In this document: positions 8,101 to 36,489 of the stretch, piece after piece
Layout: each line of letters begins with the position of its first letter
Position numbering within the stretch: the first letter of the stretch is position 1
Assembly: GCA_037043015.1 (NCBI GenBank)
Contig: CM073330.1
Span: 11,240,512-11,304,511 of the forward strand
Length of the DNA stretch: 64,000 nucleotides
DNA from: Bryum argenteum
Lineage: Eukaryota > Streptophyta > Bryopsida > Bryales > Bryaceae
Direction of reading: 5' to 3'
Made by a program: the position numbers and the translations under genes
The notes under the pieces: model-generated
Told to the model about the DNA's origin: nothing
Databases searched by the model: none
What the model saw: the letters and a program-made list of their open reading frames with translations, nothing else

Positions 8101-9110
8101 AAAAGACTCTTCTCCATAAGCTCCATTGCAATAAATCGAGACTTCTTCTCTTTCCCCCAACAAAGGAATTGAATAATGTTAGGATGCTTCAAATGTGCCA
8201 TAATTGCAGCTTCTTTCATAAACATCTTTTCAAGTCCTTCTCCTTCTCCATGAAATTGCTTCTTGAAGCAATGTATGTCATGCCATGTAAGTTTCCACCC
8301 GCTTACATGTGATGACCCCGCTCCTGGAATAAATGAAGCGTTTCCCCACGTCCCAGGGTGCTCACCTTCCATATCCCACATAATTGCTGTGCACTTCTCC
8401 ATCTGACTAGCGAGAGACTGCTCAGAAGCCCATTGCATTTTCAACAACAAATACCGGGCAAGACTTTGAGCGAGAGGTAATTCCTTCGGAGTGGGACAAT
8501 ACTCACTTCCCATGCTTTCATGGTCACCAACAAGTTTCTCAAGAAGTGATGAGAGGTCTTCTTCATCCTTTCGAACATCATCAACACGTGCGGGCTCAAA
8601 CATGGTAGATTTCCGAACATCATCAGCCAATGCCTCAAATACGCTTTTAAGAATTCCCCTCTTATAAGTCACCTCCTCGTATAACAAATGGTAACATAGG
8701 CTTAATTCCAACAAAATCTCTCGGAACGCATTCTCATTTCGCCACTGAAATATTGCAGCACGCCACCATGCTCTCTCCCCACAATTTGTTACGAGCATTG
8801 TTGCCTTCTCAGAGCATCGATAAAAGTCTTGCAGCGCCGGTGCCAAGTGCTGATCTGGTAACTTGGTACCTTCAACAAGCGAGTGGATGTTCTTGTGCAT
8901 CTCTCTCAGTTTTTTTGTTAGATCCTCGCACTGTCTCCGGTTGAGCAAATATCTTCTACGATCGTCGTCGCCATATTTCATTTGCTCGAATGTTCGCTTC
9001 CTCTCCGACTTGGTACCGCGATTCTTCATCAAGACATTTATAAGGCGATCCATGTCGATGATGCTTTTCAATGAGGCTCTCGACACTGGCACTGCCACAT
9101 TCAATCTCAA
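5181..9110 (-). CDS. Protein kinase - DC1 zinc-module protein, copy 1 (intact)
   Basis: Three exons (minus strand): 9110-7389, 7191-6342 and 6160-5181. Phases agree and give 3552 nt, about 1183 aa. Residues 1-260 are a helical region with a WWRAAIFQWRNENAFREIL block. Residues ~263-530 are a TKL-like kinase: degenerate glycine loop IPGAGSSHVSG (~263), lysine in HCFKKQF (~283), KEAAIM glutamate, HRDLKPQN (~375), IDYGSS in place of DFG (~402), and YRAPEVL (~428). Exon 2 encodes four DC1 modules, each with CxxC, HC-x2-C and HxxC ligands (CNMC, CCFC, CGRC, CAIC starts). Exon 3 encodes a Lys/Glu-rich coiled coil, then an unrecognised ~200-aa domain (CPGPRIGVFFQDV, GLLCEKPGHEH, LESISIPNLE, WLCENHFNDG). 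All catalytic kinase residues except the DFG Phe are present. It is probably cytosolic: no signal or membrane segment is seen. Role unknown; the family type suggests signalling or defence. Confidence 0.8.
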
Positions 9111-15892: not shown

Positions 15893-16265
15893 CCCACCAA
15901 CGTACCAACCTACCAACATACAAACCTACCAACCTACCAACATACAAACCTACCAACCTACCAACATACAAACCTACCAACCTACCAACATACAAACCTA
16001 CCAACCTACCAACATACAAACCTACCAACCTACCAACATACAAACCTACCAACCTACCAACATACAAACCTACCAACCTACCAACATACAAACCTACCAA
16101 CCTACCAACATACAAACCTACCAACCTACCAACATACAAACCTACCAACCTACCAACATACAAACCTACCAACCTACCAACATACAAACCTACCAACCTA
16201 CCAACATACAAACCTACCAACCTACCAACCTACCAACCTACCAACCTACCAACCTACCAACCTAC
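15893..16265. repeat. 24-bp minisatellite built from an 8-bp CCTACCAA unit
   Basis: About 13 nearly perfect copies of a 24-bp unit, CCTACCAA-CCTACCAA-CATACAAA, run from about 15905 to 16215. The plain 8-bp unit CCTACCAA then repeats about six times to 16265. The 24-mer is thus three 8-mers, one mutated, which then amplified as a higher-order unit. Because 24 is divisible by three, both strands read as open frames (YQPTNIQT on plus, VGLYVGRL on minus); these are not genes. Confidence 0.95.
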
Positions 16266-16288
16266 CTTCTTTTATGTTTTTTGAGTTA

Positions 16289-17459: not shown

Positions 17460-17492
17460 CATTAGAGAAAATTTGGGGTGTGAGGAAGGCCA
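17460..17492 (+). repeat. Left terminal inverted repeat of the large element
   Basis: Begins CATTAGAGAAAATTTGGGGT and continues to AGGAAGGCCA. It pairs with 30128-30160 with a single mismatch (G at 17482 versus A in the complement of the right end). Confidence 0.85.
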
Positions 17493-18371
17493 GTACTTTT
17501 GGCTCGAAAATCAATAAATTTTTTTCGATAAATGCTGAAATTACATATAAATGGTAATCGACCCGAGTTCACATCAAACGCCCGCCAATGGGGAAGAAGC
17601 GGCATGGCCTTGGTGGCAACGTGGTGGGCCTAGTTGACCACCGGATTGAAGGATGTGGCGATTAAGAAGGACCGAATTCATGAGTGGCGGCCGAGGTGGC
17701 AACGGGCCGTGCTTGCCGCACGAGTACCGGCGACAATGAATGCTCAATAAAATAACGATGCTTTAAACTATTTTATGCCCACCTCGTAGTACCACAACAA
17801 TGTAAATGTAAACGTGAAAAAGGTTTTACTCGTTGGAAAACGGAATCCACTACCTTAAATCAACGTCACCGGCGTTGTACAGGGTGATGGGGAAGTCCTT
17901 TTGGGTTGACTTCACATTCCACGTGGACATGCCAATTATAATTGTGCACAAGTAGAATAGCTTCCCGCCAAATGAGTTGGCTACATTCATGTTGCTCCTA
18001 GTTTGCATGGCATAATGTTGAGCGAGTGCGAGTCAAATGCTCTCCCGCCAAATGAGTTGGCCTCTTTCGTGTTTCCACCAAGTGAGTTGGTTTCGTTGTG
18101 GCCTAGGGATATCATGGCACTTCTGCATGTTTCCAACAGAGGTCAAGGAGTTTAGAGTAGAGTTGAGCGTAGTTTTGCTCCACATTTATGCATTAGCTTT
18201 AGCTGTGTATTGCCTAGACTTGCTCATGTGAACATGAAAGGTGTTCGAAGTTAGCTTAGTGGTACTACGAACAGTCATAGCAACTCTGGATGTTTCCAAC
18301 AGGGGTCAAGCCGTCAAGGTTGTCAGTCTTGTTTTATAGCTTCAGGTCTTGAGCGGTGATTTACTTATGCG
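17493..18371. other. Left non-coding arm of the element, with ~140-bp tandem units
   Basis: No gene. Three diverged direct repeats of about 140 bp span about 18090-18530. Each carries a 'gttcga/ggcctaggga..tcatggcacttctggatgt' block followed by 'ccaacaggggtcaagg'. The third unit lies inside the start of the transposase-like frame. The first two units each contain an exact TGTTTCCAACA (18128 and 18291), while the third has it mutated to 'tgtaaccaata'. Probably a regulatory region. Confidence 0.55.
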
Positions 18372-21300
18372 GTGAAAACAGGAGTTCGAAGTGAGTGTAG
18401 TTGTGGCCTAGGGACAGTTATGGCACTTCTGGATGTAACCAATAGAGATCAAGGTAGTAAGTCCTATTCAGTAGCTTTAGCTCTAGAGCGTAGATTTGCT
18501 CCTGTGGTGAGGAAAGGAGTTCGAATTGACGAACAAGTGCCGAAATCACAATTTCCAGCCTTGAGAGATTCTGGAGCCACCAACATTGACCTGTGGGTGG
18601 ATGGTAATTTGTATCCATCACATCCACACACTAGAAAGCCACCTGAGTTTCATAGTGTGAAGTCACTTCTAGAATTTGTATGTCACGGAGAATCTGGCCT
18701 ATTAGGATATGCTAAGAAACTTGTTAATACAAATGATGTTGTGAAGGGCTTGGAGTGTGAATTGAGGAAAACACGCGCCTCTATTGCACTCTTGAGGCAT
18801 GATGTTGATGTTGCTAATGAAAGGTGTACCCTATGTTCGGAGGAACTTCTTGGAAGTAGTAGAGAAGAGATTGCAACATTGAAGAGTGAATCTGACGTTT
18901 TGAGATTTCGATGTTCTTCGCTAGAGCAAGAATTAAAGAATAGCACAGAATCTCATGCGGTTAGCCTTGCAGTAGCATTCGATGAGGGACGACAAGCTGC
19001 AGATGAAGAGTTGGTTAGACTAAATCATGATCTTGAAGTAGCGAAGAAGGCGTTACTCAAGCTTCAGAGGAAGTTAGAGAGGATAGTGAACACTCCAGTA
19101 GGTACGCAAGTTAGAGCATCGAAGGGTCTGTCTGCTTTAGCGAAGTGTGGAGGCGCAGCCAAAGCGCGTATTGCAAAGATCCGAAGCTTGTTACAACCGG
19201 CTGTTGTTCAATCTGTGCATGTTGGAAACAAGACGTCGAATGGGAGGAAACGCTTGTGTGGTGGCAAGGATACACAAGATGAGACCGGGCAAGCACTTGG
19301 ACGATTACTATCACAAGGAGAGACATGGGCATTCTTTGTCGAACCGCATGAAAGCAGTTTTTTGCCACTAGGATGACAAACTACTACCTCAACGAAATTG
19401 GGGAAGAATTGGGAAATGAAGGTATATTGGCGGCATGTGATATGACTGGAGTATCTCAGAAGGGATATGGTGAGATTTACAAAACAATCAAGGGGCGAGT
19501 GCACCTTGTTGACAAGCGCTTGAAGCCAACATTTTTACCAAACCCGCACAAGGTATCAGATGAATCCACCCCATTTTATGATTCTTCTTACATTGTCTTC
19601 AAAATCAGTATTATTTACTGATGGGTTGAAAACAAACTTCAAGTAGATCTACTTTGCCAACATGCTAACATATGTCTTCTATCAGGTAAGTTTGTTGCGA
19701 CGAGAGCTGAATTCAAAGTTGATGGATCTTGTTGGTGACTACTACTACATCGAAAGTACATTGGAGATTCAATCAAATGCTCCAATGACAAGTACAAAAG
19801 AGAAGAAGAGGAAAGCAGAGATAAGTCGGGTTGTCTTGACAGCAAAGAATTCTTTGTTTGTTGATATTGAACACGTGCAAAGGACTATGGTGAAGTTGTA
19901 CGGTTTTACCACGGAAGGTAATTAACTTCTACGAAAAATTAAAGAATTTAGCGTGATAGAGTTGAATGAGATGTCTTGCAGAATGGTTAATGGGTTTGTA
20001 GATATTAACTCCAACAATCTGTTTGAATTCACAGAAGTTGGAAACAAGCCGCTGGTGTTCGTGTTGAAGATGGATGAAGCGGAGATTATGCATGGAAGGA
20101 AGTTTGAAAGGGTTAGCATAACCCTCATGAATCGTGCGTTAGACACTAGCATTCAGAAAACTGACGATAGGTATTTCTCATTCCAATCTGAAACAGAGAT
20201 ATGGCCTATTGCGTGCTTTGAGGTTGCGAAGGAGTCCCACGAAGTGCTTCAGTGGGTGTTCCAACAAACACAATTCCGTGCAGTGATCAAAGCACAAGAT
20301 GAAGGTCAAGTACTTACAGTGGAGGGTGTTGGAACCTTCCAAGTCGAGTGGCATTTGTCTGCGGACATGAAAACAATCAAATGTTTGTACGAGTTGAAAC
20401 ATGGAGCCAATGCCAAACATTCATGTATTTATTGCAATCAAGAGCGGACGAAACCTGTGGTGGGATCAGCTGGAAGTGTTACTTTGGAGGCTAAACGAAG
20501 GAAACATACATGGCATGGAGGTTTATTTGCTAGTAACGTACACTGTCAACCATTGTCCATTAGCAGAGAGTTACGGTGGAAGCCTATTCTACCAATCCCA
20601 CTTGAGAGAGTACATATCTGCACTCTACATGCGTTGACGAGAATCATGGAGAAGATTCTTCATCTGCATTTCATTTTCATTTGGACTATGACAAATGAGG
20701 CCCGTCAAGAAGTTGCCATAGAGAACATGGAGAAGAGCTTGTCAGCAGCTGGACTTCATGGTGGCAACGTCCGCATTATGAAGGATCCAAAGCTCGGTGG
20801 TTTCCGGCATTCCATTCCTCAAACCCTCCCCGAGTAGCGTGGCTAGATCGGGGATGTTCCAACCATCTACTTGGTCAGGAGAAGATCGGGTTTGGAAGGA
20901 TGTCCTCCGCTCAGAAAACAACACCCTCGACCAAGGTACGCAGTATTTGGACAGAGTCGAAATGTGGCAAGCGTTGGAAACAATATTGCCATATCTTGTG
21001 GGCCTTTCTTTAGATCAACAACAAATCGATACTTTTAGAGGAAAAATTAAGAAGTGGGGAGAGCTCTATGTGGAGTGCTTTGGAGAAAACCATGTCACTT
21101 ATTATATGGTGAGTTTCCACTTTTGCATACTTCTGTAATTTTTGGTTAATAAGCCTACTGCCATCTGGGCATATCTACATGTTTGAATTCTCCCACTAAT
21201 TTCTCTTATTATTGGCTTTGCAAAGATAACCTTGTGCGGCATGGTCCTTGGTTTGTGAAACATACGGTAGCCTTCTTGCATGCGGAACAATCAAGGCATG

Positions 21301-21647
21301 GAAAAGTCACATCATGCAAAGAAAAGGCGGCTAATCAACACCATACTCAACATGGTGGTACTAAAGACAGAAACAAGTGCTATTGTTCGTGCATGCAAAG
21401 ATCTTGGTATAGAAATATTCAGCACAGGTTTGCTAAGCAAGAACAATTGCAAGCAACATGCAACGTCAGATCACAAGAAAATCAAGCAGCGTCGACAGCT
21501 CTAATGGAGAAGAAGAGGATAGCCTATAACGCAAGTAATGCAATGGAGGCAGCTAGAAAGTGGAGGGAAGATAGAATACGAGTAGGTAAAGCTTGGGTGA
21601 GAGAAGTTGAACGCGAGGATGTTTCCAACACGCCTGTCATAGTCTAA
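18372..21647 (+). pseudogene. Degraded DDE transposase-like gene with RAG1/Transib-like zinc-insert layout
   Basis: Exons can be joined: 18372 to ~19371, then a frame change to 19373-19549, an intron (19550-19685), 19686-19917, a short intron (19918-19980), then 19981-20800. After that come a frameshift near 20800, an intron at ~21109-21230, and two or three further frameshifts at 21250-21340. The N-terminal part is a coiled coil (residues ~115-260). The core shows VLKMDEAEI (possible first Asp), then WHLSADMKTIK (second Asp), followed 20 residues later by CIYC. Downstream are HICTLHALTRI and, near the end, HGPWFVK..YGSLLAC..NNQGMEKSHH (possible third acid). D2 + ~20 + CxxC and an H-G-P...E spacing of ~21 match the arrangement known for RAG1/Transib. 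With several frameshifts this copy cannot make a full enzyme. Confidence 0.6.
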
Positions 21648-21864
21648 CTGTACAAATAGTGGTGACGTTGAGCACTTTAGAATGTTCGCAACGTAGATAA
21701 GGTGCGTCCCTCATTTCTGTATTACTCCATTGCCGCATCTTCACCGGGATTTGGGATCGCTTCCTCTGTAACGATTGTCTTGTTGGCTGCATGTCATTAT
21801 GCAATTGCTTACAACTCACATTCACTATTCAATTCAAAATAACTCCAAAAAAATGTATCGCCAT

Positions 21865-23323
21865 TCAAATGATCTCACCTAGTTTTTCGGCAGCTACATC
21901 CTGCAACCTTGTCATCATGTTGGAAACGTCCTTCTCCATCCAGGAAGTAAGAGGGTATCCAAATTGAGCCATCCAAGCACCACTGAACTTATCTTCGCAA
22001 CGTGGGCAACCGTATTTTTGATCCGCCAACAGCTGGGCAATGCATACGGGGTGGTACTCACACCCGCAAGAAGCAATTATCACAGCACGCGCTACAAAAC
22101 CTTGTTTTTGCGGCCCGCACACAACTTCGGTTGTGTTCTCCACATAGCGAGGACGGACGTGCACTGTTGGATACATGAATGGAGCCCTCGGACGGAGCAC
22201 GAAGGAAGGAGTTTTGAGCCTCGTACCTTCTCCTCGGATTCCACAACAAAGAAACGTTGCGCATTTCTAAAGTGCGTTTTGACAGTGCCAACGACCCCCC
22301 TTCAATAGATTTTATTGAAGCTTTTGCGTGCTCTTCAGCCTCCGACATTGTGATCAATTTCTCCAATGTCTGTCGTTCCTGCAACAGCTTGTGCATAGAC
22401 AACGCGCTCGCGCTCGTGCCTTCGCAACTTGGAGAAATAGGGTTAGAATGTATCCCTGAGGCATACCGGACCTCCAATTCTTCTCGGTCTTTAGCACAAG
22501 TGACAAGTGCCTCCTTTGATTCCGCCAAGGACCTCAAAATACCCTCGTGCGCGGCAGTTGCTTTGTCCCTGAGTTGGCGATAATCCAACAATTCTGCTTC
22601 TGCCTCCGCAAGCGCTTTCGAATTGTGCCGTGTTGGAGAACCTGTCCTCGTCCTCTTACGCCCGGTGGTAGTCGTGTAGAAATGGCCCATAATAGCGCAC
22701 AAGTGCGCAAGTTGCTCCCTGATCGCAACAGGTCCCAGTTTGTGGCGGTTATGTTTCTTCTGGCTTATTCGAGTGTTGCGCCTTTTGATCGCTTCTGACA
22801 CCCAGTCAATTTCCAGGTTGTGCACGAATGTGGCATAGCAAGCGCGTAAGAACCTCAAAGAAAATTGGTCATTGGAAATAGAGCCACCATACACGAGCTT
22901 GTGGTGTTCAAAAAATTGTTTTGCTTGGATTTTGTCAAGACACAAGCTGATAGGAAACCTGTATAGATCGGTGCCTGTCTTCCATTTCTCTCTGATCTCC
23001 TCCTCAGTGACTTGCGTTAGGTTTGCAACTTCATCCACGGGTGTTCCACGAGGGCACAATCCCGCAACAATCGTGAAGAATCGCGCATCGTAAACACCGT
23101 GCCTTCCTTGAAGCACGGGGGCAGCAGCGGTTATCAACTGCTTCAGTTCTTCAGGAATTCCATCCAGTGGGATCGGCTCTTGAAACTCATCTTCTCCGGA
23201 CAACGTCTTCTCTACTCCGCCAGGGCTCTCACTCTCTTCAGGCACATGCTTCGTTTCCACCTCCGGGGACTCTCTGTGATCTCCCGAATTCCTCCTGCAA
23301 GCACGAGCCGGTTGTCTGGACAT
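21865..23323 (-). CDS. Element-encoded coiled-coil protein with RING-like C-terminus
   Basis: The ATG at 23321-23323 lies directly after GTTTCCAAC on the minus strand. A 421-aa frame runs to 22058. The last part switches frame near 22200 to give ~110 aa ending at 21865, with CGCEYHPVCIAQLLADQKYG then CPRC, a RING/zinc-ribbon-like C-x-C...HxxC...CxxC pattern. The switch needs either an unrecognised intron or a frameshift. The N-terminal 60 residues are Glu/Pro-rich. Residues ~85-215 hold a domain (WKTGTDLYRFPIS...FLRACY...HKLGPVAIREQL) that also occurs in the paralogue at 24294-25313. Residues ~230-345 are coiled coil. The RING-like end could mean ubiquitin ligase or DNA-binding activity. Family unknown. 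Confidence 0.55.
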
Positions 23324-23333
23324 GTTGGAAACA

Positions 23334-24293
23334 GATAGCGAGTACTACGTATTCAGTATGAGGCTACTACGTATTCTACAACGTACTCTGAAAGGCTAGA
23401 AGAAAACTTAGAGAAAGAAAAAACATTGGTACCACTCCGTAGGAGGAGTTGGTACTTGTTGGTTTGAGGTGAATCATAACACTCAAGTTGATGATGTCAA
23501 CTTCATCATGTAACTTGCTCAAAGCTTCTAATCCATCAGTTCGTTAGAAGTGATGATTGCTTTCCTTTTGGAATTACGTCAAAGCCTCACATCAGTTTAT
23601 CACATATGATAATTACTTTGCAATGAGTAACTTGCAACTCACTTGGTTGTTGCCATCAATGTTTTTTTCAACAATCCTTCAAAATCAATGAATTTGATTC
23701 ACTGATGATCCTAATCAAATACCCAAATATCTCACAGGGCAAGTAATCGAGCACCGAAGCAATCGAGCACCTAAGTAATCGAGCACCCCGAGGTTCCCAC
23801 GTGCAAAAATTTTAATTAAACTATGCACCATTGCAGTTTGTTTCCATCGACTGCGTCAGTGTCTCCCTCCGTTTCGATGGCCGCTTGTTTTTGCCACCTC
23901 CGAGTCTCAGACGTCGATCGCTGCCGTGTGCCCGTGTCGCTGCCGTGTTAGTAGTTGCGGTGTTAGTGTCGTTTCCGTGCTAGTGCCGCTGCGGTGTAGA
24001 GTGTGTGTAGAGCTTCGTTGCAATTTGCTGTAGGTGCGACGCTTAGAGCTTCTGTAGTTTTCGGCAGCTTAGGGTTTGTTTGCGGTAGATAGTTTCCAAC
24101 ACGTCGTGAGCGATGCTGTATGTTTCCCGAAGTGTCGCTGTAAGCTTGTGTTTAGGGGCGCTGTGAGCTTGTTTTTAGGGTCGCTGTGTCGCTGTGAGCT
24201 TGTGTCGCTGCGAGCTTGTGTCGCTGTGAGCTTGTCTTCCAGTTTAGGTTTATCGCTTGTGTGTGGTTTATCGAACTTGTAGCGGTTTCCAAC
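23334..24293. promoter_or_regulatory. Divergent intergenic region between the two paralogous element genes
   Basis: This ~960-bp gap separates the divergently transcribed 23323-21865 and 24294-25313 genes, so it must hold both promoters. Motif copies sit at both edges (23323-23333 and 24284-24294) and at 24091-24101. The part at 23880-24290 is rich in 'gctgtgagcttgtgtcgct' type repeats (about 24140-24240). No gene is seen. Confidence 0.5.
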
Positions 24294-25313
24294 ATGGCCT
24301 CCGCCCCCACAGGCCGTAGCAGTAGGAGTCTCGTCAAAGGCAAAGCTGCTCTGAAAGAGGAGCGGGAGGAGTCTCCTAGCAAGAAAGATAACTGGGTCAT
24401 TCCGGTTCCCAAACAGTTGTCATGGGAGGAGCCCTTCGATTTAGAGGGGTTTCCTCCTCTCCTTCTTGAAAACTTCTTGAGTCGGCACCGTGCTTGTTAG
24501 GAAGAGAGAATGTTTGTTTACGATGAGGACTTTTTCATCGCATTTGTGGGTCATGTGCAAAGAAGGAGTCTTGCCGAAAGATGTGACCGACGCCATGGTC
24601 CCGATAAGTGTGTATGGCGCCTGGTGGGAGAGAGGGACGGGTGTCAACAAGTCGAGGTACTTCTTGGAGAAGTGCACGAAGGAGATGCATAAGATCGCGT
24701 ATGTGAAGATGTACCAGCGTGTTTACAACGAGCCTCCTGACAACAAAGCCTTCAGCCAGACCTTCTTACGGGCGTGCGTGTACTACTTCAACTTCGATGG
24801 AAAGGGTGGCAAGAATCCGGTGAATTGGGCCGGACAAGCTGCAAAGGTGATCACCGATCGAGATGCCCATGCGAAGAACAATCCCCTGAAGTTGGGCCCT
24901 CCCGCATTGAAGCTGCAACTTGTACACATCATCGACGACTATGCTGACTACTTCGAAGGAGTCCCAGAAACTGGGGATGTTGGAAAGAAGGCCGACTGTG
25001 GTGAGGAGAAGGGCAAGCGAAGTTGAAGGAGTTGCGAGAAGGCAATATCCATCATGATCGCGTGGTTTGCAAAATCTAGCGAGATGAAGTGGCTCTGAAG
25101 AAGGATGCACTATCAAAGTTGGAGGCCGAGAAGGTGGAGATTGAAGCCGAAGATGAGAATCTAAACTCCAAGAAGGACGAATTGCGCAAAGCTTCTAAGG
25201 ACTTTCTCAAAGCCGGAAACATGGAGGAGAAAGCGCGTGTCGACAAGGAGCAACGACAAGTCGTAGCAAGATTGCGACCAACAACGAAAATTGGAGGAAT
25301 GTGAGGACTGATT
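24294..25313 (+). pseudogene. Broken paralogue of the coiled-coil gene at 21865-23323
   Basis: The start ATG at 24294 follows GTTTCCAAC directly. The frame (MASAPTGRSSRS...PFDLEGFPPLL) stops at 24498. The protein continues in the other frames: VYDEDFFIAFVG near 24515-24550, then CKEGVLPKDVTDAM through to 25026, and a coiled coil at 25089-25304. The central part is homologous to the minus-strand gene: WWERGTG versus WKTGTD, FSQTFLRACVYYFNF versus FSLRFLRACYATFVH, LKLGPPALKLQL versus HKLGPVAIREQL, all in the same order and spacing. At least two frameshifts break this copy. No RING-like tail is seen. Function unknown. Confidence 0.55.
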
Positions 25314-25679
25314 GATGGGACACGAGAAGACCATAGCCCGGGAAGAAGAGAAGGCTGCGTGGTCCGAGAGAGGCGCTAAGTCGACTACTACGAAAGAAAT
25401 GCGCACCGAGAAAGCGACTCGATCTCTATCAAGCCCAAAAATCCTGCTGGAAATAGGATAGCAACTGAAGGACGGGCGCCAAACCTTAACACAACCACAC
25501 CATGCGGACTCTGCAATCTCCTGTTTGTTTCCAACAGCATAGTACCATTATCGTGTGGTTGTTTATTTCACCCGTGGTGTTTGTGGCCAGAACTCATTTC
25601 AGGAGTTCGTGATTGTCCGCTGTGTTCAGAAGCTGTCGATGCTTTTTGGTTGGATTCTTGGGGGTTTGGTTTCTTAGAA

Positions 25680-27293
25680 ATGCCCGACGGTAACCCTAAA
25701 CCCGATGACAAGGCCCCGGCCCAGGTAGGAGAGCCGGTCATGGAGCGCAAGAAAGCGCCTACTGAACAAGCTTCCAGAAAGAGTGAAGCAGCCTCTAAAA
25801 AGCCGAAGCAGAACAAGACCCAAAACAGGACTCCGTCGCCTAAAGCTGGTAAGGCAAATTCAACCACGTGTTTTCAATGTTGGCCCATACCTGTGCACAT
25901 GTACGTGTTCTAGAGCACGTGGTTGAATTTGCGCGATGTTGTAACCGTCATGTTGGATGTGCGATGTTGGAAACAGACCTTCAATCGATGGAGGACAAGA
26001 AGAAGGAGAGAGCATACCAAGGGGTCTAAAGGTGACACCAAGACCGGCTCAAAGAAAGGCAAAGTCACATCCAACGTCGTCAAAGGGGGCAAAGGCGGCG
26101 CGTTCCTTTTGAAGACAAGGCTGGTAAGACAAATTCAACCACGTGTTTTACTTGACTATTTCATTCTTTGGCGGTACTGTGCACATGTGTAGAGCGAGTG
26201 GTGCTTGGTGCGCGATGTTGTAACCGTCTCGTTGGGATGTGCGATGTTGGAAAGCGAAGCTAAACCAGTGGAGGACAAGAAGAAGGAGAGCATACGACGG
26301 GGCCTAAAGATGACAAAGAAGACCGGCTCGGCAAAGGCAAAGTCACATCCAGCGTCATCAAAGGGGGCAAAGGCGTCAAGTCATCCAATCTAGTAGTCTT
26401 GACGACGTTCCTTTGAAAGACAAGCAATTTAGGATAAAGAAGAGGCCGGCTCCTACCGTAGGCGAGGGTGAACCACTGCTAAGGTCTTTGAAGCAACATA
26501 GCACCGTATTGCCTATGGCCGGTAAGAAACTTACACTCGTTTAATTAAGCCATGTCATTTGTTTGCCCATGGTAGTGCACATGTGTGAAGGACATGTTCC
26601 GTCTTGTGTACGCGTTAACGCAAACTTGTTCTTGTGCGGATGTGGTATGTTGGAAAGCGAAGCTAAAGCGGTGGAGGGGGCGGGAAGAAGGGAGAGCGTA
26701 CGAAGGGGCATGAAGATGACACCGCGACCAATTTGACGGCCAAGAAGAAGGTAGAACGTACATCTGACAGTCCTTCCCTAGTTGGCTCACCATCATGTGA
26801 CAGTGGGTCGTTAGAAAAGGTGAATTCCGTGATTGAACAAGTGTGCTCAAGCGCAGATTCCTGAGAGCTTAAGTATATTACAGTGTGTCGTTTAGCCGCG
26901 CCGGACAAGGTGGAAGCAATGTTATGATTTTGACTTACATATTTTGTCAATGCCAAACATTTGGGTGTGGAATGAAAAATCCTTATTTACACATTGACCT
27001 TGTTTTCGTAACCGTTGGAAACATCACAACAGAGCAAAGGTGATGGAGAAAGTGAAGCTGAACCACCTACAAAAGCAGCCTCGCCAAAGCCGCACGTGAC
27101 AAACAAAGATCTTCTTGGAAACCAGCCAGCATGTCATTTTACACCAATGAAATTCCCCATTAAACCGCGTTCATCAATTCAACACCCAGAGAAACGGGCA
27201 CCACCAGTGAAACGGGCAGGTAAAAAATCAACCACTATATCGGCGGTTTTTAACGCACAACTAGCATACTGTAAGGCATCCGCCGCCAAATAA
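25680..27293 (+). CDS. Lys/Ser-rich element gene with three degenerate repeat units
   Basis: Fragments of a basic low-complexity protein (MPDGNPKPDDKAPAQ at 25680, later PVEDKKKE repeats, and GDGESEAEPPTKAASPKPHV near 27040) alternate with intron-like segments. Three units of ~300 bp (about 25850-26100, 26120-26400 and 26520-26760) share 'ggtaag.caaattcaaccacgtg' at a donor-like start. They also share 'tgtgcacatgt' and an acceptor-like end 'gcgatgttggaaacag' or 'atgttggaaag', followed by 'ggaggacaagaagaaggag'. This looks like exon-intron duplication inside one gene. Frames between units disagree, so exon joins are uncertain and the gene may be decayed. No function can be assigned. Confidence 0.35.
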
Positions 27294-27663
27294 AATCAAT
27301 ACTTGTACGATAAAACAACCATATTCAATTTCGATTAACTTTTAACTTTCAAATAAAGAGGGATGAATTGCTCAAGCATGCAGCATGCTCTTGTCCATGT
27401 GTTTGTTGGAATGCTACTTTGTCTCTAAACGGATGATATCTTAGTGATGCTAGTTGTGTTACATTGGATGAGGCAAAGACACGAAGCGATGATGTTTCCA
27501 ACAGTCTCGTTTCTCCTTCGACCTCCACCGATGCTTTTGAGCCACCATTGTTCATAGACGTTAAACCGGCCGAGGTACTTGCCACCTCCGAGAAGACATA
27601 GTCGACCTTGATTCGAACCGTGTTCGCGTATATGGAAGCCTGCAAGGGAGCCTGTAAGGGAGC

Positions 27664-28035
27664 ATGAATGGGAGAAGAACTCAATCACCGGAGGAAATAG
27701 TGTCTCGATTGACCAACGGCTCTCTCAAGCGGCGATTCTCGAGCAAAGACCATGAGACATCTCGGCGACATCGAAGTCTCGCTCAAGTCTTGGGAGATGA
27801 GCTACTCGGTTCTCCCGTAAAGTTCGCAAACTTCATCGAGACTTCCTATCCTTCATCGAGAAAGGCTGTTTTCCACCTCTTCCGCTTAGGCGAAGATTGC
27901 AAATTTTATCTACAAGTTGAAAGCGCCTTAAGTTTAGAGTTGGCCAACCGGACATGCTTTACCCGAGAAACATGTGTAGGAAAAAAAAAAAACATTTTTC
28001 CTTGTTTAGATACTGTTGGAAACATCACGTTGTAA
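27664..28035 (+). CDS. Possible small element gene, unknown
   Basis: An open frame of 123 codons (MNGRRTQSPEEIVSRLTNGS...) with a basic N-terminal half and a plausible folded second half (SPVKFANFIETSYPSSRKAV, FRLGEDCKFYLQVE). The last ~25 codons run through an A10 run and a motif copy (28014-28024) and are probably not coding; a donor-like 'gtgtagga' at 27974 may end an exon. It was kept because it sits in the GC-richer element and has reasonable composition. No homologue recognised. Confidence 0.25.
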   Translation: MNGRRTQSPEEIVSRLTNGSLKRRFSSKDHETSRRHRSLAQVLGDELLGSPVKFANFIETSYPSSRKAVFHLFRLGEDCKFYLQVESALSLELANRTCFTRETCVGKKKNIFPCLDTVGNITL

Positions 28036-28323
28036 ACTCAAAACATTTATTCTACTACTTATTCTAAGACCACCCTTCAATGCAAAATGCTCACAACAAA
28101 GAAGTAGTTGTTGCCACCGGATTTGTGCATGCGCTACAAAAAAGGCATTGTTTTATAAATACCAAAAGTCCACCTTACGTGATCCCTATCACGATTTAAG
28201 GTCATTGGCCACATATGTATAAGTCCGTCCGACCGCCTTCGTACACAGGCACTTGCATCAAAAATACTAATACGATCTAATTTCCGATAAGTCACTCTTC
28301 CTAGCAAGCAATATTTCACCTAG

Positions 28324-29739
28324 CTAGTAACTCCTACTATTTCGAATGCCCAGGGAGGAAGGACTCTTGCTACGGGATGGACATTCTCGTGTCTGCGATT
28401 GATGTTGACAACCGCACGCCGGGTTTCGAAGCTGAAATCGAAAATCCACTGGAACAATATCCCCAACGTAATGCGAGACCTCTCGACGAATATGTGACAA
28501 CGGCCATGTTTTCCCCACTTCAAACGCCGCCACCACACACCTCCAAACAAACAGGGAAGAAGCACCAAATCCTCCTCTTGAACTTGGTCAATCTGTTGCC
28601 AACTTACACCATCTTGCCCTAGACGCTCTCTCCCATACTTTAAATTTGCGTACAACGTCGATCGCCCCACATGGTACCTGCGTTGCACAACAAAACGCGT
28701 TTAGGGTTTTAATCTCCAAATCGGTTTTCCTTGACAGCCGCTCCCTCCTCTCAAGCTTGACGATTAGATTTTACTGGCATTAGCAACCTACGTACCTGAA
28801 GGTAACAGTGTGCATCAATATCGTGCACCTCACGATATCTTTGCCAAACACAATTTTTTGATGCCAACCCGGATCCATGAGGCTCAAAAATAGTTCATCA
28901 GATGGATTTTTAACGAAATACAAGGTGGCTGTGCGCCTCATGTTTGCCTCCTCAAGTGCAAACAAATCGACAAAGACATGCAGTGGTAAAAACCACTGCA
29001 AATGCCCCATTCAGCTTCCAGTGGTGGGCTTTGTAACGGCCTGAAAATCTTGGCGCAACTTAAAGCGAAACGCTTCGCTGGTGTGCATGTCGGGGAGGGG
29101 CCACTCTGAGTCGGTGAACGCCGGCAAAAGGAGTGGCTCAACTGATCCATAGAGCAGGCCTGGTGTAGGCGGAACATACACAAGATTAGAGTAAAAAATT
29201 CCATTGTCGAGAAGCTCGCTGTAAGATCTGCCATTGCGAGTGGCTTCCCCGATGTCGCCGTGGAGAACCACAATGGGTCCGAGTATAGAATCGGGGTCTA
29301 CCGAGTCCTCGAAAAATGACTGGAACAAAACTGTTTCCAACACGGAGCACATCACACAAATTAGTATAAAAAAACACGTTCGGAGCATTATAGAAAACAA
29401 TTTTCCTAACGGTGAATCACAATTGCAATGCACGAGTTCTTACAGTTGCATGGAACCCTTTCGTGTGGAATTTCAGGATCCAAGAGCACTTGATGCCGCT
29501 GGTATGCGTGCCTAACCAACACAGACTCCATGGCAACCTTGTTGCCAACATGCTTCACCTTGAAGTCCACAATTTGGGCTTTGTAGGACCCTCGCATGCT
29601 CTCACCTCCATACTTGCGAGCCTCTCTTGCCCATGTTCCATTTCTCCCTGGATTCAGCCTCACCCATGACAACCTCTCATAACGCGTTGGTATCCACTCT
29701 CCGGCCTCATTGTGAGTGTTAAACAGCGTAACGGCACTG
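28324..29739 (-). CDS. Spliced element gene of unknown function
   Basis: Consistent splice joins on the minus strand. Exon 29739-29480 starts after 'agcgagatcag' and encodes EAGEWIPTRYERLSWVRLNP...PHERVPCN. An intron follows, with donor GTAAGA and an acceptor ending TGTTGGAAACAG at 29331. Exon 29330 to ~28787 encodes LFQSFFEDSVDPDSILGPIV...; in the same frame it meets a TGA at 29011-29013 and then continues with WFLPLHVFVDLFALEEANMR to donor GTACGT. The final exon starts at ~28681 with YHVGRSTLYANLKYGRERLG, and a frame change leads to SHIRREVSHYVGDIVPVDF. The stop and frame change imply decay, or an exon I have not resolved. The upstream start was not found. No family recognised. Confidence 0.4.
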
Positions 29740-30127
29740 ATCTCGCTCTGTGGTCACCGATTCTCCATAGTGACTAACACGACAAAAAACACTGACAAGG
29801 AAAATTGGCTGCAAGAAGAAATATGCAATCCTATTGTTCCCGCCATTGCTTTGAAATTGGCCGTCACCATCCGCCACTAAACCACGGTATGCACGACATG
29901 TCATTCTCATTTGGCATCATGAGGCAAACAACCGATGGTGCCGCACCAAGGACGGTGCTCTCACTCGTGCTAGCAGTACCTCCACTGGGTACGCGAATTT
30001 TATATACTTTTCATTCATTTTGCTTTGATTGGTCAACACTTGCGCAAGATATGATGTTGGCACTTTGTGTGCCAAGGTGGCAAGCTGATTTTTTGAATTA
30101 AAATCGACGTTAATTGAAAAAGGAAGT
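29740..30127. other. Right non-coding arm of the element
   Basis: No gene is supported. It probably contains the 5' end or promoter of the minus-strand gene at 28324-29739. Confidence 0.4.
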
Positions 30128-30160
30128 TGGCCTTCCTTACACCCCAAATTTTCTCTAATG
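30128..30160 (-). repeat. Right terminal inverted repeat of the large element
   Basis: Reads TGGCCTTCCTTACACCCCAA and continues to TTCTCTAATG, the inverse of 17460-17492 with one mismatch. Confidence 0.85.
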
Positions 30161-31182: not shown

Positions 31183-33086
31183 TCATTCTTCTCGGAAGTA
31201 TGGAGGATACCGAATCTCATAATCATCTTTGATGTTATGATACTTTGATGAACAAGACTCCAATATACCGTCTTCTAGACCATCATCAAAATGGTCCTTA
31301 CAAAGCCAAGCAATGGAGCCATAGGAATTGCGCACTTGAGTTTTCTTGTAACGGACAAGGTGTAAACCATGAGTCTCTTTGATGTTCTGTCCTGAAAATT
31401 CAAGCTCTTTCAAAAACCACTCCGATGAAGATACTGCAGCTTGCTTGAGGACTTCCATATTCTCCGTGCCTTTGATTCCCTTGATGGCACTCAAATCCCA
31501 CACTTCACCTGATTCCAAAGTAGGTACAGAAATGGAATCCAATCTAGCAAGGTGGTCATCCTCCTCTGTACTTGTGATGATGATGTTGTTCCTAATGTTG
31601 TTCCTCACAATCTGCAACCCGCATGCTAGCAATGGTTCCAACTTCTCCGCAAGTTCTTCTCTGAGCTTTCCATTGTACACTTTGGTTTTGCCGAAAACAA
31701 TGTGCTCATCGCCTGGCTTCTCACAAAGTAAACCAAGGCAAACACCCTCCATGCGAGCTTGTAGATTAGTTAGCAATCTCCTCACCACCCTCCCATCTTT
31801 CTTTACATTTTGAAAAAACACTCCAATCCGAGGTCCTGGGCATATCTTGGATTCTTCACGAGTGGCTTTTTCTTCCTTCAGAAGTTGTTGCCTTTTTTTC
31901 AACCTCTCGTGCACAGCTATTAGATTCTTCTTTCCAGTCTTCGATGCACTATCAAGGCTTTGGAGATTTAACACAATCTTCTCCAAGTTTTCTAGCATTT
32001 CCAACGGGTCTTCACGCACTTTCTTCACTACCAACTTGTTAGCCTTGATTCGCTGTGCTGTTTGAATAGATATCACTCCTTTGTGTTGATTCATATAATT
32101 GGTTGAAGTCACGCTTTGATGACTCTCCTTGGAAGTTGGTTGTAGTTCACGGACTCGTGCGTGCACATCCTTGACGACTTCATAATAACACAATGTAATA
32201 ATGCGTTAGTTTTGTAATTATCAAAACAAAAAGTTACAATTGGGCCTAAATGTGAAACCAATGATGCTCTACCCATAAAAAAATATCAAATATACAAACT
32301 GAAGAACATAACATTCTTATGAGTTAGTATGTTTCCAATGAGGTCATCGATTTCGTGTACCTGATCGTGGCTTTTGTATTGATGATCCTTTGGTTCCATG
32401 GAAGGATGACATATTGTCCAATACAGCAGAGATTGATACTAATTGAGCATAAATACTCTTGCTCTCCTTCTCCATCATGGCTTTCTTGTATGCTTCAACC
32501 AAGTTGAATGCTTCATCATTCATGTAATCTACACAATCCGGATGTATGTCTATTTCACAATGCTCGCAACGATAAAACTGTGAATATCCATGGGTATGGC
32601 AAAAGGCACAAAAGAAACTCATTGAATGATATACAAGATCAAGTCGATGTGATTTTTCAATCACACAAATAACACAAATTGGTCGTAAAGGTTGAATGGC
32701 ACAAGTCAAATGCATTGAAAATGCACATGGTCCACAATGGTAGTGCCATGTACGCTCCTCTATCTCACCATTGCAACGGTCACATAATATACTTATACTA
32801 GGTGGACATGATCTCACGGTGAGTGGATGTTTGTGATGTGGCCACCTCCTAATGTTTTCAAACTTGGTACACCTTGCGTGCACATCATAATCACATCCTT
32901 CACATCTATACACCCAATCACTATTTTGAGTGGGTTCCTCGCAAAAAGAACATTTTGCCTTTGGATTGTCTCTATAATAGTTTTGAGTAAGAAGTTGAAG
33001 TGGATGACAATGAAAAAGTACGCGAACTTTCTCTTGTATCTGTGCACAATGTGGATGTGCATCAAATTGACAAGCTGAACAATTAT

Positions 33087-34545
33087 CACTACTAGACAAT
33101 TCAGCGTCCAAATCAACATGAAAACGTTGAAATTTTCAGTTGATTCGGACGCGTTGATCTGGACATTGATCAACACGAAAGTGTTGATCAAATCTGTTGA
33201 TTCGGTCAAGGATAATTTATTTTTTTAAAAAAATTAAAATTAAACTTCTGCTCCAACAAACCGGGAAGAAAATTTTTCCACGAAAAAGAAATGCGTATTT
33301 TCGAGACAATCAGGGGCCCACCCGAGGACATCCAAATCACTGGTGGGACCCACAAAGAGGTCAAGCCTTCTACAGGCTGCCGCCTCTCGAGCTCGAACTG
33401 GAGACCTCTTAGCTCCCACCGTAAGTCGTTCGCCACTACACCACTTGTTCCCATGCATGCACACAAGAGGTTTATTGTTTTACTTATAGCAAAACGTAAG
33501 CATTGGCTATTAATTTGCCTTGTAAAAAATTCTTTTTTTTCAAATTTTTTTTTTGCACTATTTCATGCAGGTATCTTTCTACATGTAGAATAAATTTCGA
33601 AATTTTTTGAATTGTTTTTTTTTTTTTTTTGAGGCTGGGGCGTCTTTTTATTGCCTTGCAAACCTTTAATATTTTTCACGATGTAAAAACATTTTCTTTT
33701 CAAATTTTTTTTTTGGAACTATGTCATGCAGGTATTTTTTTACATGCAGAAAAAATTTCGAAATTTTTTGAAATTTGTTTTTTTTTGAGGCTGGGCGTCT
33801 TTTTACTGCCCAGCAGTCTTTTAATATTTTTCACGATGTAAAAAATTTTTTTTTCAAATTTTTTTTTTGGAACTATGTCATGCAGGTATTTTTTTATATG
33901 CAGAAAAAATTTTGAAATTTTTTGATTTTTTTTTTTATTTTAGGCTGGGCATCTATTTACTGCCCAGCAGTCTTTTAATATTTTTCACGATGTAAAAAAA
34001 TTATTTTTTCAAATTATTTTTTTGGAACTATGTCATGCAGGTATTTTTTTACATGCAGAAAAAATTTCGAAATTTTTTGAAATTTGTTATTTTTTTGAGG
34101 CTGGGGCGTCTTTTTACTGCCCAACAGACTTTTAATTTTTTTCACGATGTAAAAACATTCTTTTTTCAAAATCTTTTTTATTTTGCATTTTAATCATGTC
34201 AGCAAAAGATTCAAAAGATTCCCAAAGATTCCAAAGATTCTGGAAGATTCTAAAAAGATTCTAAAAAGATTCCCAAAAATTCCAAAAATTCATGGAAGAT
34301 TTCAAAAAGATTCCAGAATGATTACATAAGATTCACAAAATATTCCAAAAAGATTCCAAACAGATTCCATATTTGATGAAATTTTGTTGATTCGGTCGTT
34401 ACACTACTCAAATCAACAAAATATATTTAGCAAACTGTTGATTTTTACAAAAAGTTCAAAAATCAGTGAATACGGTCAAGGCAGTGCGCCAAACAACAAA
34501 AATCAGTTGATTTTATGTTGATTCGGTCACAGTTTTCTAGTAGTG
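33087..34545. mobile_element. Non-autonomous CACTA (En/Spm-like) element
   Basis: The left end is CACTACTAGACAATTC and the right end GAATCGGTCACAG-type sequence closing in TTTTCTAGTAGTG, the inverse of CACTACTAGAAAA. It is flanked by a 3-bp duplication TAT (33084-33086 and 34546-34548), as expected for CACTA elements. Subterminal repeats of TTGATTCGGTC/GATCAAC type cluster in the outer ~150 bp at both ends. No transposase is encoded. It inserted into DC1 exon 2 of kinase-DC1 copy 2. Confidence 0.9.
33530..34190. repeat. Four ~155-bp tandem repeats inside the CACTA element
   Basis: Each unit contains 'gaggctggggcgtctttt', 'actgcccagcagtctttt', 'tttttcacgatgtaaaaa' and 'actatgtcatgcaggtat', separated by T-rich runs. 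The 'ggctggg' anchors lie near 33630, 33790, 33942 and 34098. Simple AT expansion makes the unit length vary. Confidence 0.85.
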
Positions 34546-36489
34546 TATATAATCCTCCATCAATGACTTCACCGCACATGTTACAACGTGATGCTCTTTT
34601 ATATGGTGATTTCTCAACAAAAGCAAGTCCTTGGTTGCAAGTGCATGAAATAATGGATACGGTGTCACTTGGCTTGTTTTCATCCTACGTGTTCCATACC
34701 CACCAAGAACACTTCAATCTTTTATTAAAATTAAAAGTATATCATATAGAAGCATCATAAGAAGATTAATACCACTCTTTGAAATAAAAAGCACCTATTA
34801 AGTTATTGTAAATTTTGTTCATACTCATTTCAAAACTTGCAACAATAGCTCTTGCACTTATATCACAATTCTCTAAGTATGCTTACCTCGTCAATATCTT
34901 CCGCGAATATTACTTTTGGAAGACTCTTGAAATGGGAGGATTCTCCGTCCAACTTTTCATAGACGAAGTCAATGCTTGATTGTATTTTGTCTTTTTTGAC
35001 ATTCGAAGGTCGTGTTGCGTGTTTTAACGTTTCTAACTTCAAACAAATATTTACAAATGTTGGTCGTTTGGATGGAATTACATTCCAACAACTTCTGAGA
35101 AGTGCACCCAACTCTTCAGGGCAATTGTTTGGAAGACTTGGTCTCTTCCCATTCATAACCTCATCATATAAATATTCCAAAGAATAGCTTCCTATATCCT
35201 TAAAAGGTTGATGAAGAGTCAAGACATGTACGCATGTCATTGCAAAACTAAAGACATCTGTTTTGAACCACATTGCCTTTCCACTTGACTTCAATCCAAC
35301 AATCTTAAGAACCTCTGGAGCCCTGTATACTCCGGTACCAATACCAAATTGTGTTATGGTATTGGATTTTCCAATCTCAACCTCCGTTTTTGAGCTTCCA
35401 TAATCAATTAACTTCACATGCCAATAACCTTTAGAATGCATGGATGTTAACTTATTCACCATCACATTCTGCGGTTTAAGATCACGATGAGCTATACCTT
35501 GATCATGCAAGTAGCACATTCCTCGTGCAATCTGCCAAAAGATGTCCAATGTGACCTCCAAAGAAAATGACACACCCTTCTGATCTTCAATCAATCTAAG
35601 AAGATTCTTGTTCATAAGCTCCATTGCAATGAAGTGAACACTTTCTTGAACCTCCTTCTTTCCCTCTCCTTCCGTACAAGCATTTCCCCAACAGAAGAAT
35701 TGAATAATGTTAGGGTGCTTCAAATGTGCCATAATAGCAGCTTCTTTTAAGAACACCTTTTCAAACCCTTCTCCTTCGCCATGAAATTGTTTTTTGAAAC
35801 AATGTATTCCAAACCATTCACTTCTCCACCCACTTACAACCGATGACCCTGCTCCTGAAAGATAAGAAGTGTTTCTCCATATTCCAGGACAATCAAGACA
35901 CCACATGATTGCTATAGTCACTGGCAAGTTTCTCAAGAAGTGATAAGAGGTCTTTTTCATCTTTCCGTACATCATCGGCACTTGGAGGCTCGAACTTAGA
36001 ACACACCGGAAGGTCACTGGGCAATGTCTCAAATACACCTCGAAAAAATCCCCTCTCAGAATTTACTTCCTCGCAAAAGAGATGGTACGAGAGGCTTATA
36101 TCCAACAAGATCTCTCGAAACGCATTCTCATTTTGCCACTGAAATACTGCGGCACGCCACCATGTTCTCTCCACACAATTCATCAGAAGCAGTTTTCCCT
36201 TTTCGAAATGTCGGTAAAAATCTTGGAGCGTCAATTCCAAGTTCTCATTCGGTAAATCAATACCTTCAACAAGCGATCGAACATTCTCAGTCATCTTTCT
36301 GAGCTTGGTACTTAGGTCCTCACATTGTCTCCGGTTGAGCAAGTATCTTCGAGGAAGAAGGTCGTTCCCAAGATGCATTCTCTCCCATGTCTCCGACTTA
36401 GAACCGGCTTTGATCTTTAAGGCCTTTTTTAAGAGGCGATCCATTTCGATGATGCTTTCGAACGTGAGGTGGCACTGCCACATACAATC

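Follow-up and report, generated by a model that had tools for sequence, protein, structure and literature searches.

The 64,000-bp stretch of the Bryum argenteum genome analysed here (the window; contig CM073330.1) contains a transposon of 12,701 bp (17460–30160, plus strand), and along this element is scattered a short DNA word with two-fold symmetry, TGTT-N3-AACA. This dyad is conserved, dispersed and lineage-specific; it is enriched within the element and bounded by its limits, it is present in small derivatives, and its positions have turned over between related elements. From sequence comparison we consider it probable, at roughly 0.6, that the dyad is read by an accessory protein encoded by the element itself. 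The analysis covered a single genome (258.8 Mb in 25 contigs), and the transposase tree comprises 30 loci out of the 84 transposase matches found there. Below, A denotes the lineage of the window element, B the lineage of B1, B2 and B3, and C3 the element at locus L021.

The motif in the window element

A first-pass annotation of the window had described an 11-bp near-palindrome occurring 16 times between 18129 and 29341, eight times in each orientation, and only twice elsewhere. Recounting the 9-mer GTTGGAAAC on both strands gives the same figures, with 18 occurrences in the window, 16 of them in that interval (eight per orientation) and the other two at 2558 and 11194. In 100 dinucleotide shuffles of the window the 9-mer had a mean of 0.98 and a maximum of 4. 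Genome-wide, where each pattern was compared with its reversed control, it occurs 3,472 times (control 3,798), or 0.17 per 12.7 kb; the element is thus about 94-fold enriched, and the word is not equally dense elsewhere. For k = 7, 8, 9 and 10 alike, the most frequent words of the element derive from this motif. The 11-bp near-palindrome is present in its full form, TGTTGGAAACA/TGTTTCCAACA, at 10 of the 16 sites; all 16 have 11 bp in common and nothing evident beyond. The full form is also overrepresented in the genome (496 against 217 for the reversed control). Among the matches listed, 30 of the 54 on contig C1 sit in six tight clusters, five of which adjoin a transposase match or a match to the X/Y genes of the element family (below); for the sixth, at 31.00 Mb, none is listed.

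The sites are distributed among four genes and the DNA between them. By homology, gene 1 (18372–21647, plus strand) comprises an N-terminal part, a transposase core with a modelled RAG1-like fold (19953–21117, plus strand) and a C-terminal exon; gene Y (24294–25904, plus strand) is a paralogue, with a RING-like tail, of gene X (21868–23323, minus strand; 421 aa); and gene Z (28429–29759, minus strand) completes the set. Two minus-strand copies of TGTTTCCAACA (18128–18138 and 18291–18301) precede gene 1, whose coding sequence contains TGTTGGAAACA (19220–19230), AGTTGGAAACA (20036–20046) and CGTTGGAAACA (20972–20982), all on the plus strand. The latter two are within the transposase core, and they are exact in B1, B2 and B3 and in B1, B2 and L038, respectively. 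At 21620–21630, TGTTTCCAACA (minus) is in the 3'-terminal part of the reading frame of gene 1, though not within the segment that has homology. The C-terminal coding region of X holds TGTTGGAAACG (21918–21928, plus), and TGTTGGAAACA at 23323–23333 (plus) includes the first base of the start codon of X. Between X and Y is AGTTTCCAACA (24091–24101, minus), followed by GGTTTCCAACA (24284–24294, minus), which likewise takes in one base, the first, of the start codon of Y, and by TGTTTCCAACA in the RING region of Y (25526–25536, minus). Further sites are TGTTGGAAACA at 25965–25975 and 28014–28024 and CGTTGGAAACA at 27013–27023 on the plus strand, and TGTTTCCAACA at 27493–27503 and 29332–29342 on the minus strand, the last of these lying between two Z coding segments and having, in B1, intact arms around a GCC spacer. 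An eleventh full dyad with a different spacer, TGTTGCCAACA, occurs in Z coding sequence at 29540–29550.

Only 5 of the 16 sites fall where the element shows coding homology, the others being in leaders, between genes or in unassigned DNA; since such homology spans 7,319 of the 12,701 bp, the sites are if anything rarer in coding DNA. The outermost 669 bp on the left and 819 bp on the right of the element contain no 9-mer. The smallest spacing between sites is 163 bp. Spacing in A is more even than random (coefficient of variation 0.52, P 0.006), borderline in C3 (P 0.05) and not so in B1 (P 0.36), and we draw no claim from it. At 18102–18453 a unit of about 46 nt is present three times around an exon start, with the motif in the two upstream copies and not in the coding copy.

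Conservation of the dyad and turnover of its positions

An unsupervised scan of gapped palindromes ranks TGTT-N3-AACA first in the window element (11 occurrences; 0.80 expected) and in its copy on contig C9 (11; 0.99), as well as in B1 (14; 0.95), B2 (11 in 3.8 kb; 0.49), B3 (9; 0.66) and L038 (9; 0.54). When the scan was rerun with one mismatch allowed and tandem repeats masked, the same dyad was still first in the B loci and in L038; in the window element it was second to the overlapping GTTG-1-CAAC. The genome as a whole has the pattern TGTTNNNAACA at 0.43 per 12.7 kb and is not enriched in it (8,872 against 13,123 for the reversed control), yet the pattern occurs 14 times in B1 (12.5 kb) and 11 times in B2 (3.8 kb). 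The spacer is GGA/TCC at all 16 sites of the window lineage; in the 25 dyads of B1 and B2 (strands pooled) it is GGA in 8, GCC in 5, GAC in 3, ACC, CCA, AGA and TCA in 2 each and GAA in 1.

The arms are conserved above both the spacer and the flanks. Over the 12 directed pairs of four B elements, which are not independent of each other, identity is 536/560 in the eight arm positions, 178/210 in the spacer, 1665/1996 in the 15-bp flanks and 30821/34742 over all aligned bases. In the six undirected pairs the arms are intact in 28 of 33 aligned dyads, as against a mean of 45.6% at random positions, and none of 1000 random draws was as high.

In this family the density of dyads is kept, while most of their positions change. 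The window element and its C9 copy have 15 of 16 sites exactly in common (background 78%), and in several shorter A-type loci the site at 21621 has been lost. In its alignable parts B1 is 73% identical; of the five sites located there, two are unchanged (background 6.9%) and one more retains its arms around another spacer. In the reverse direction, 3 of the 14 B1 dyads align to the A element and just one is a dyad there.

A second dyad in a related lineage

The 9-mer is found in all 12 loci of the A/B clade and in none of the other 18 loci of the transposase tree. One of the latter, L021, whose transposase is 58% identical to that of the window element, has a dyad of its own: GHTGNCAGC at 14 positions in 3.8 kb, with GCTG-1-CAGC as the best dyad (log10 P −12.2). 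The next 8 kb of this C3 element contain 19 further positions as far as the terminal repeat, giving 33 in total, and there is none in the 2.2 kb past that repeat. The C3 element alone has 9 of the 180 occurrences of TGCTGNCAGCA in the genome. Ten of the 33 sites fall in the 651-aa Y frame, where they are read in phases 0, 1 and 2, and one is just inside the Y start. The two codes have the common frame TGYT-N3-ARCA, the third base and its mirror partner differing jointly (TGTT versus TGCT), as would be expected if a single protein surface read both half-sites.

Small derivatives retain these words. L075 (C5:21439881-21441819), a 1.94-kb element with the same terminal repeats, seems to have arisen by deletion; of its 8 sites 5 are perfect and some are in inherited positions, and TGTT-N3-AACA is absent. 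L074 (C2:16124743-16126342), a B-type derivative of 1.6 kb, has 2 dyads and one 9-mer. Both are short non-autonomous elements, each with the dyad of its own lineage.

Of the earlier suggestion, selection on the DNA and recognition by an element-specific factor are indirectly supported by the arms being conserved above spacer and flanks, by the second lineage having its own dyad and by the three phases used within one frame. Selection at the protein level was rejected on the grounds that sites are not confined to genes, that they occur in either orientation, and that all three phases are used within the Y frame of C3.

Genes of the element and the candidate reader

In the window copy, matches to genes 1, X, Y and Z each occupy more than one frame, and introns may explain part of the frame changes in genes 1 and Z; in the C9 copy the transposase core and X are each a single frame, against two frames for the core in the window copy. 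The core is predicted by structure modelling to have a RAG1-type RNase H fold. The protein collection contains 87 homologues of it that have no Pfam domains, and the transposase gave no Pfam match above a cut-off; its open reading frames had no match to MuDR among the Pfam results at E <= 1, and a profile of 40 transposase sequences retrieved no RAG1 chain from the PDB at E <= 10. The N-terminal part of gene 1 is coiled-coil-like, according to sub-cut-off Pfam matches.

X-type proteins combine a helical domain at the N terminus with a long coiled coil and a tail that is RING-like (model of X: predicted local distance difference test score 69, predicted template modelling score 0.35). Of their database matches only the one to RING is convincing (zf-RING_2, E 2.9e-4, for a relative of C type), and it does not reach the curated cut-off. 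Nothing above a cut-off was found for the Y-type and Z proteins, which were searched in Pfam alone.

The first-pass annotation saw the two paralogous coiled-coil genes, one with a RING-like tail, as the obvious candidate binders of the motif. The comparison of lineages does not support X, the 421-aa protein, in that role: relatives of X with at least 53% identity occur at loci whose transposase, where listed, is of the A lineage or 65–71% identical, and the genes of B1 and C3 are nearer to each other than to X. Whereas A has both X and Y, B1 and C3 each show, in the parts compared, one gene of this kind, a Y, and these two score 161 bits (27% identity) against each other but 100 and 77 bits against X. 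Y is therefore the more economical candidate reader, and the chance that it is the putative reader we put at a little short of even.

The mechanism we propose would be as follows. The 11-bp symmetric site, TGYT-N3-ARCA, would serve as the element's own address along its length, and an element-encoded accessory protein would bind it as a homodimer, each arm of the dyad being read. The best candidate for this protein is Y, with its predicted helical domain, coiled coil and RING tail, which is present in all three motif-bearing lineages compared. Y would load all over its own element, sparing host DNA and distant relatives, and once loaded could counter silencing, perhaps through RING-dependent ubiquitination of host chromatin proteins. 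Such an anti-silencing role, suggested by analogy with other transposons, is rather tentative.

Several observations weigh against this proposal. The reading of the motif as a dyad rests on B and C3, the spacer being fixed in A, and the retention of sites in the C9 copy is a weak signal, little above background, the copies being young. The Foldseek list for the X model consists of RING domains, coiled coils and unrelated chains, with no DNA-binding fold and nothing at E <= 0.001. The Y proteins of A, B1 and C3 are linked at only 27–47% identity, and Y of B1 matches a C-type protein at 146 bits, nearly equal to its 161 bits with C3. The C-type elements (L071 and L031, C1:10612900-10626767) have several X/Y-like RING coiled-coil genes, few perfect copies and no clear dyad, their weak signal being TGCT-N2-AGCA / CTGC-1-GCAG at log10 P −5.3 and −5.5. 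Proteins of this kind are thus not always accompanied by a dispersed motif, which counts against any simple one-to-one rule. Nor does every relative keep its dyads: at L048, which adjoins a transposase of 65% identity, the 9-mer is absent and there are just 2 dyads. The scan itself is weak at 3.8 kb, where six A-type loci reach only −3.0 to −4.9, and negatives in distant subfamilies are correspondingly weak; twelve control pieces from the window reached up to −4.2 (over all window controls, −4.3 at most), and the control locus L004 gave −7.8 with a GC-rich word. At that length, the 8 loci scanned, out of 9 in the distant clade, showed nothing above the window controls, and eight sister-clade loci (L019, L020, L026, L027, L029-L032) ranged from −3.1 to −5.0, several by virtue of TGCT-N2-AGCA or overlapping words. 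A dyad in every subfamily is consequently not established.

Alternative explanations

The sites could instead be read by the transposase, or by the N-terminal part of gene 1, for example in synapsis, self-avoidance or compaction of the element. Every A, B and C3 site-bearing locus among the 30 encodes a transposase, the small derivatives retain sites along with terminal repeats, and the coiled-coil-like N-terminal part makes a dimer plausible. Yet RAG1-fold transposases read element ends, the 9-mer sites are not subterminal (they start 669 bp from the left end and end 819 bp from the right one), and distant subfamilies with the same transposase have no clear dispersed dyad in a scan that is weak; we regard this explanation as unlikely. 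A host transcription factor, origin-binding protein or silencing protein, exploited or suffered by the element, is less likely still. Regulators could act at the sites overlapping the start codons of X and Y, and on contig C1, 24 of the 54 listed copies of the full 11-mer fall in none of the six clusters, but two lineages in one genome have different dyads, and neither TGTTNNNAACA nor the 9-mer is commoner genome-wide than its reversed control; only the full 11-mer is (496 versus 217), with the clusters contributing.

Since some sites are inside genes, a signal at the level of RNA (splicing, an RNA-binding protein or a small-RNA target) might be envisaged, but the eight sites per orientation, their presence between genes and in genes of either strand, and the symmetry of the dyad fit recognition of DNA, leaving this a very improbable alternative. 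Hardly credible, finally, is a functionless by-product of duplication, gene conversion or mutational bias. Sites 18129 and 18292 do indeed belong to a duplicated exon start, and partial sites occur in repeats near 26 kb; otherwise the 16 sites are set in unrelated sequence, different lineages have different words, and the footprint of arms conserved above flanks and spacer already speaks against a by-product. A duplicated longer repeat as the source of the sites was rejected because, those two apart, their flanks are unrelated.

Ends, copies and surroundings of the element

The claim of a 12.7-kb transposon stands, with limits corrected to 17460–30160 by the terminal inverted repeats and by the alignment to the C9 copy (C9:2829227-2841878; 95.5% identity), which begins and ends at these limits. 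The terminal inverted repeats (left, 17460–17492, plus strand, beginning CATTAGAGAAAATTTGGGGT; right, 30128–30160, minus strand) are near-perfect, and the element ends start with CATTAG. The repeat pattern occurs at 52 places in the genome, against 9 for the reversed control, and neighbouring repeats in opposite orientation outline elements of about 8 to 40 kb, plus small ones of 1.6 and 1.94 kb. Ends were paired by nearness, and in 12 of the 13 resulting pairs the flanks do not match over 3 bp or more; the family thus seems to insert without target-site duplication, which is unusual given the intact terminal repeats. A 5-bp duplication was found at none of the 13 pairs, and the sole match, 4 bp (ATAG), flanks the window copy.

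The element is flanked by similar gene clusters (5181–9110 and 31183–36483), both with DC1-type C1-domain proteins, protein kinases and a third protein that looks alike by eye, as if the element had inserted into a tandem duplication. A 24-nt tandem repeat of 15 copies, 99% matching, occupies 15899–16266.

Comparison with known systems

Like RAG/Transib, the window element has a transposase core modelled with a RAG1-type fold. RAG/Transib elements have a 5-bp target-site duplication and ends beginning CAC, whereas here the ends are CATTAG and 12 of 13 pairs lack a duplication; the 40-sequence profile retrieved no RAG1 chain from the PDB at E <= 10. In maize En/Spm, the element-encoded TnpA binds many copies of a short motif and is linked to loss of methylation, and we propose a likeness in that a putative element-encoded protein would here serve many copies of a short element motif. 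The TnpA sites are subterminal arrays of a 12-bp word in an element with CACTA ends and a 3-bp duplication; the ends of the window element, in contrast, are empty of the 9-mer, its sites are interior, its ends are CATTAG, and 12 of 13 pairs lack any duplication of at least 3 bp. Bacterial DNA uptake sequences and words of the Chi/KOPS type are also short and dispersed in coding and noncoding DNA, some of them marking self, but they mark a whole genome, whereas the present word marks one transposon lineage.

The first-pass annotation had pointed to the VANDAL elements of Arabidopsis, and this precedent holds for the logic, while the transposase fold, the protein family and the layout of the sites all differ. 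According to PMC5735166 and PMC10398659, family-specific motifs are bound by VANC proteins and silent marks are lost; the motifs are YAGTATTAY and AGTTGTCC/AGTTGTAC, in noncoding tandem repeats, and the binding of VANC21 was demonstrated experimentally (PMC5735166, PMC10398659), whereas our sites are known from sequence. Both systems have short motifs that are enriched in one element family and replaced by another motif in a related one, and in both an accessory gene lies next to that of the transposase. The differences are that single dyads are here dispersed in noncoding and coding DNA (5 of 16 in coding homology) instead of in tandem repeats, and that the window element has a core modelled as RAG1 and no MuDR-type transposase match; the element proteins gave no match to DUF1985, the VANC domain. 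Among plant relatives of Transib, the parts of PMC9435367 covered here report 39 Transib-like proteins and mention no dispersed dyad sites, and among the titles and opening lines of abstracts in the incomplete literature searched, none describes a RAG1-like transposon of plants as having dispersed dyads.

Implications

At its most ambitious, our proposal would be that a RAG1-fold superfamily of plant transposons writes a lineage-specific address word along its length, coding sequence included; that a RING coiled-coil homodimer reads this word, covers the element and disarms silencing; and that word and reader co-evolve, the change from TGTT to TGCT creating a new and separate code in the same genome. 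Taken as a whole this is doubtful. If true, it would be a further case, besides VANDAL, of sequence-specific self-recognition by a transposon, in another superfamily, with another protein family and with a code spread along the element as single sites. The two codes, TGTT-N3-AACA and TGCT-N3-AGCA, related by a symmetric change, would make the evolution of protein–DNA specificity testable by swaps of protein and site, and an 11-bp word that addresses a RING protein would naturally lend itself to use as a targeting tool.

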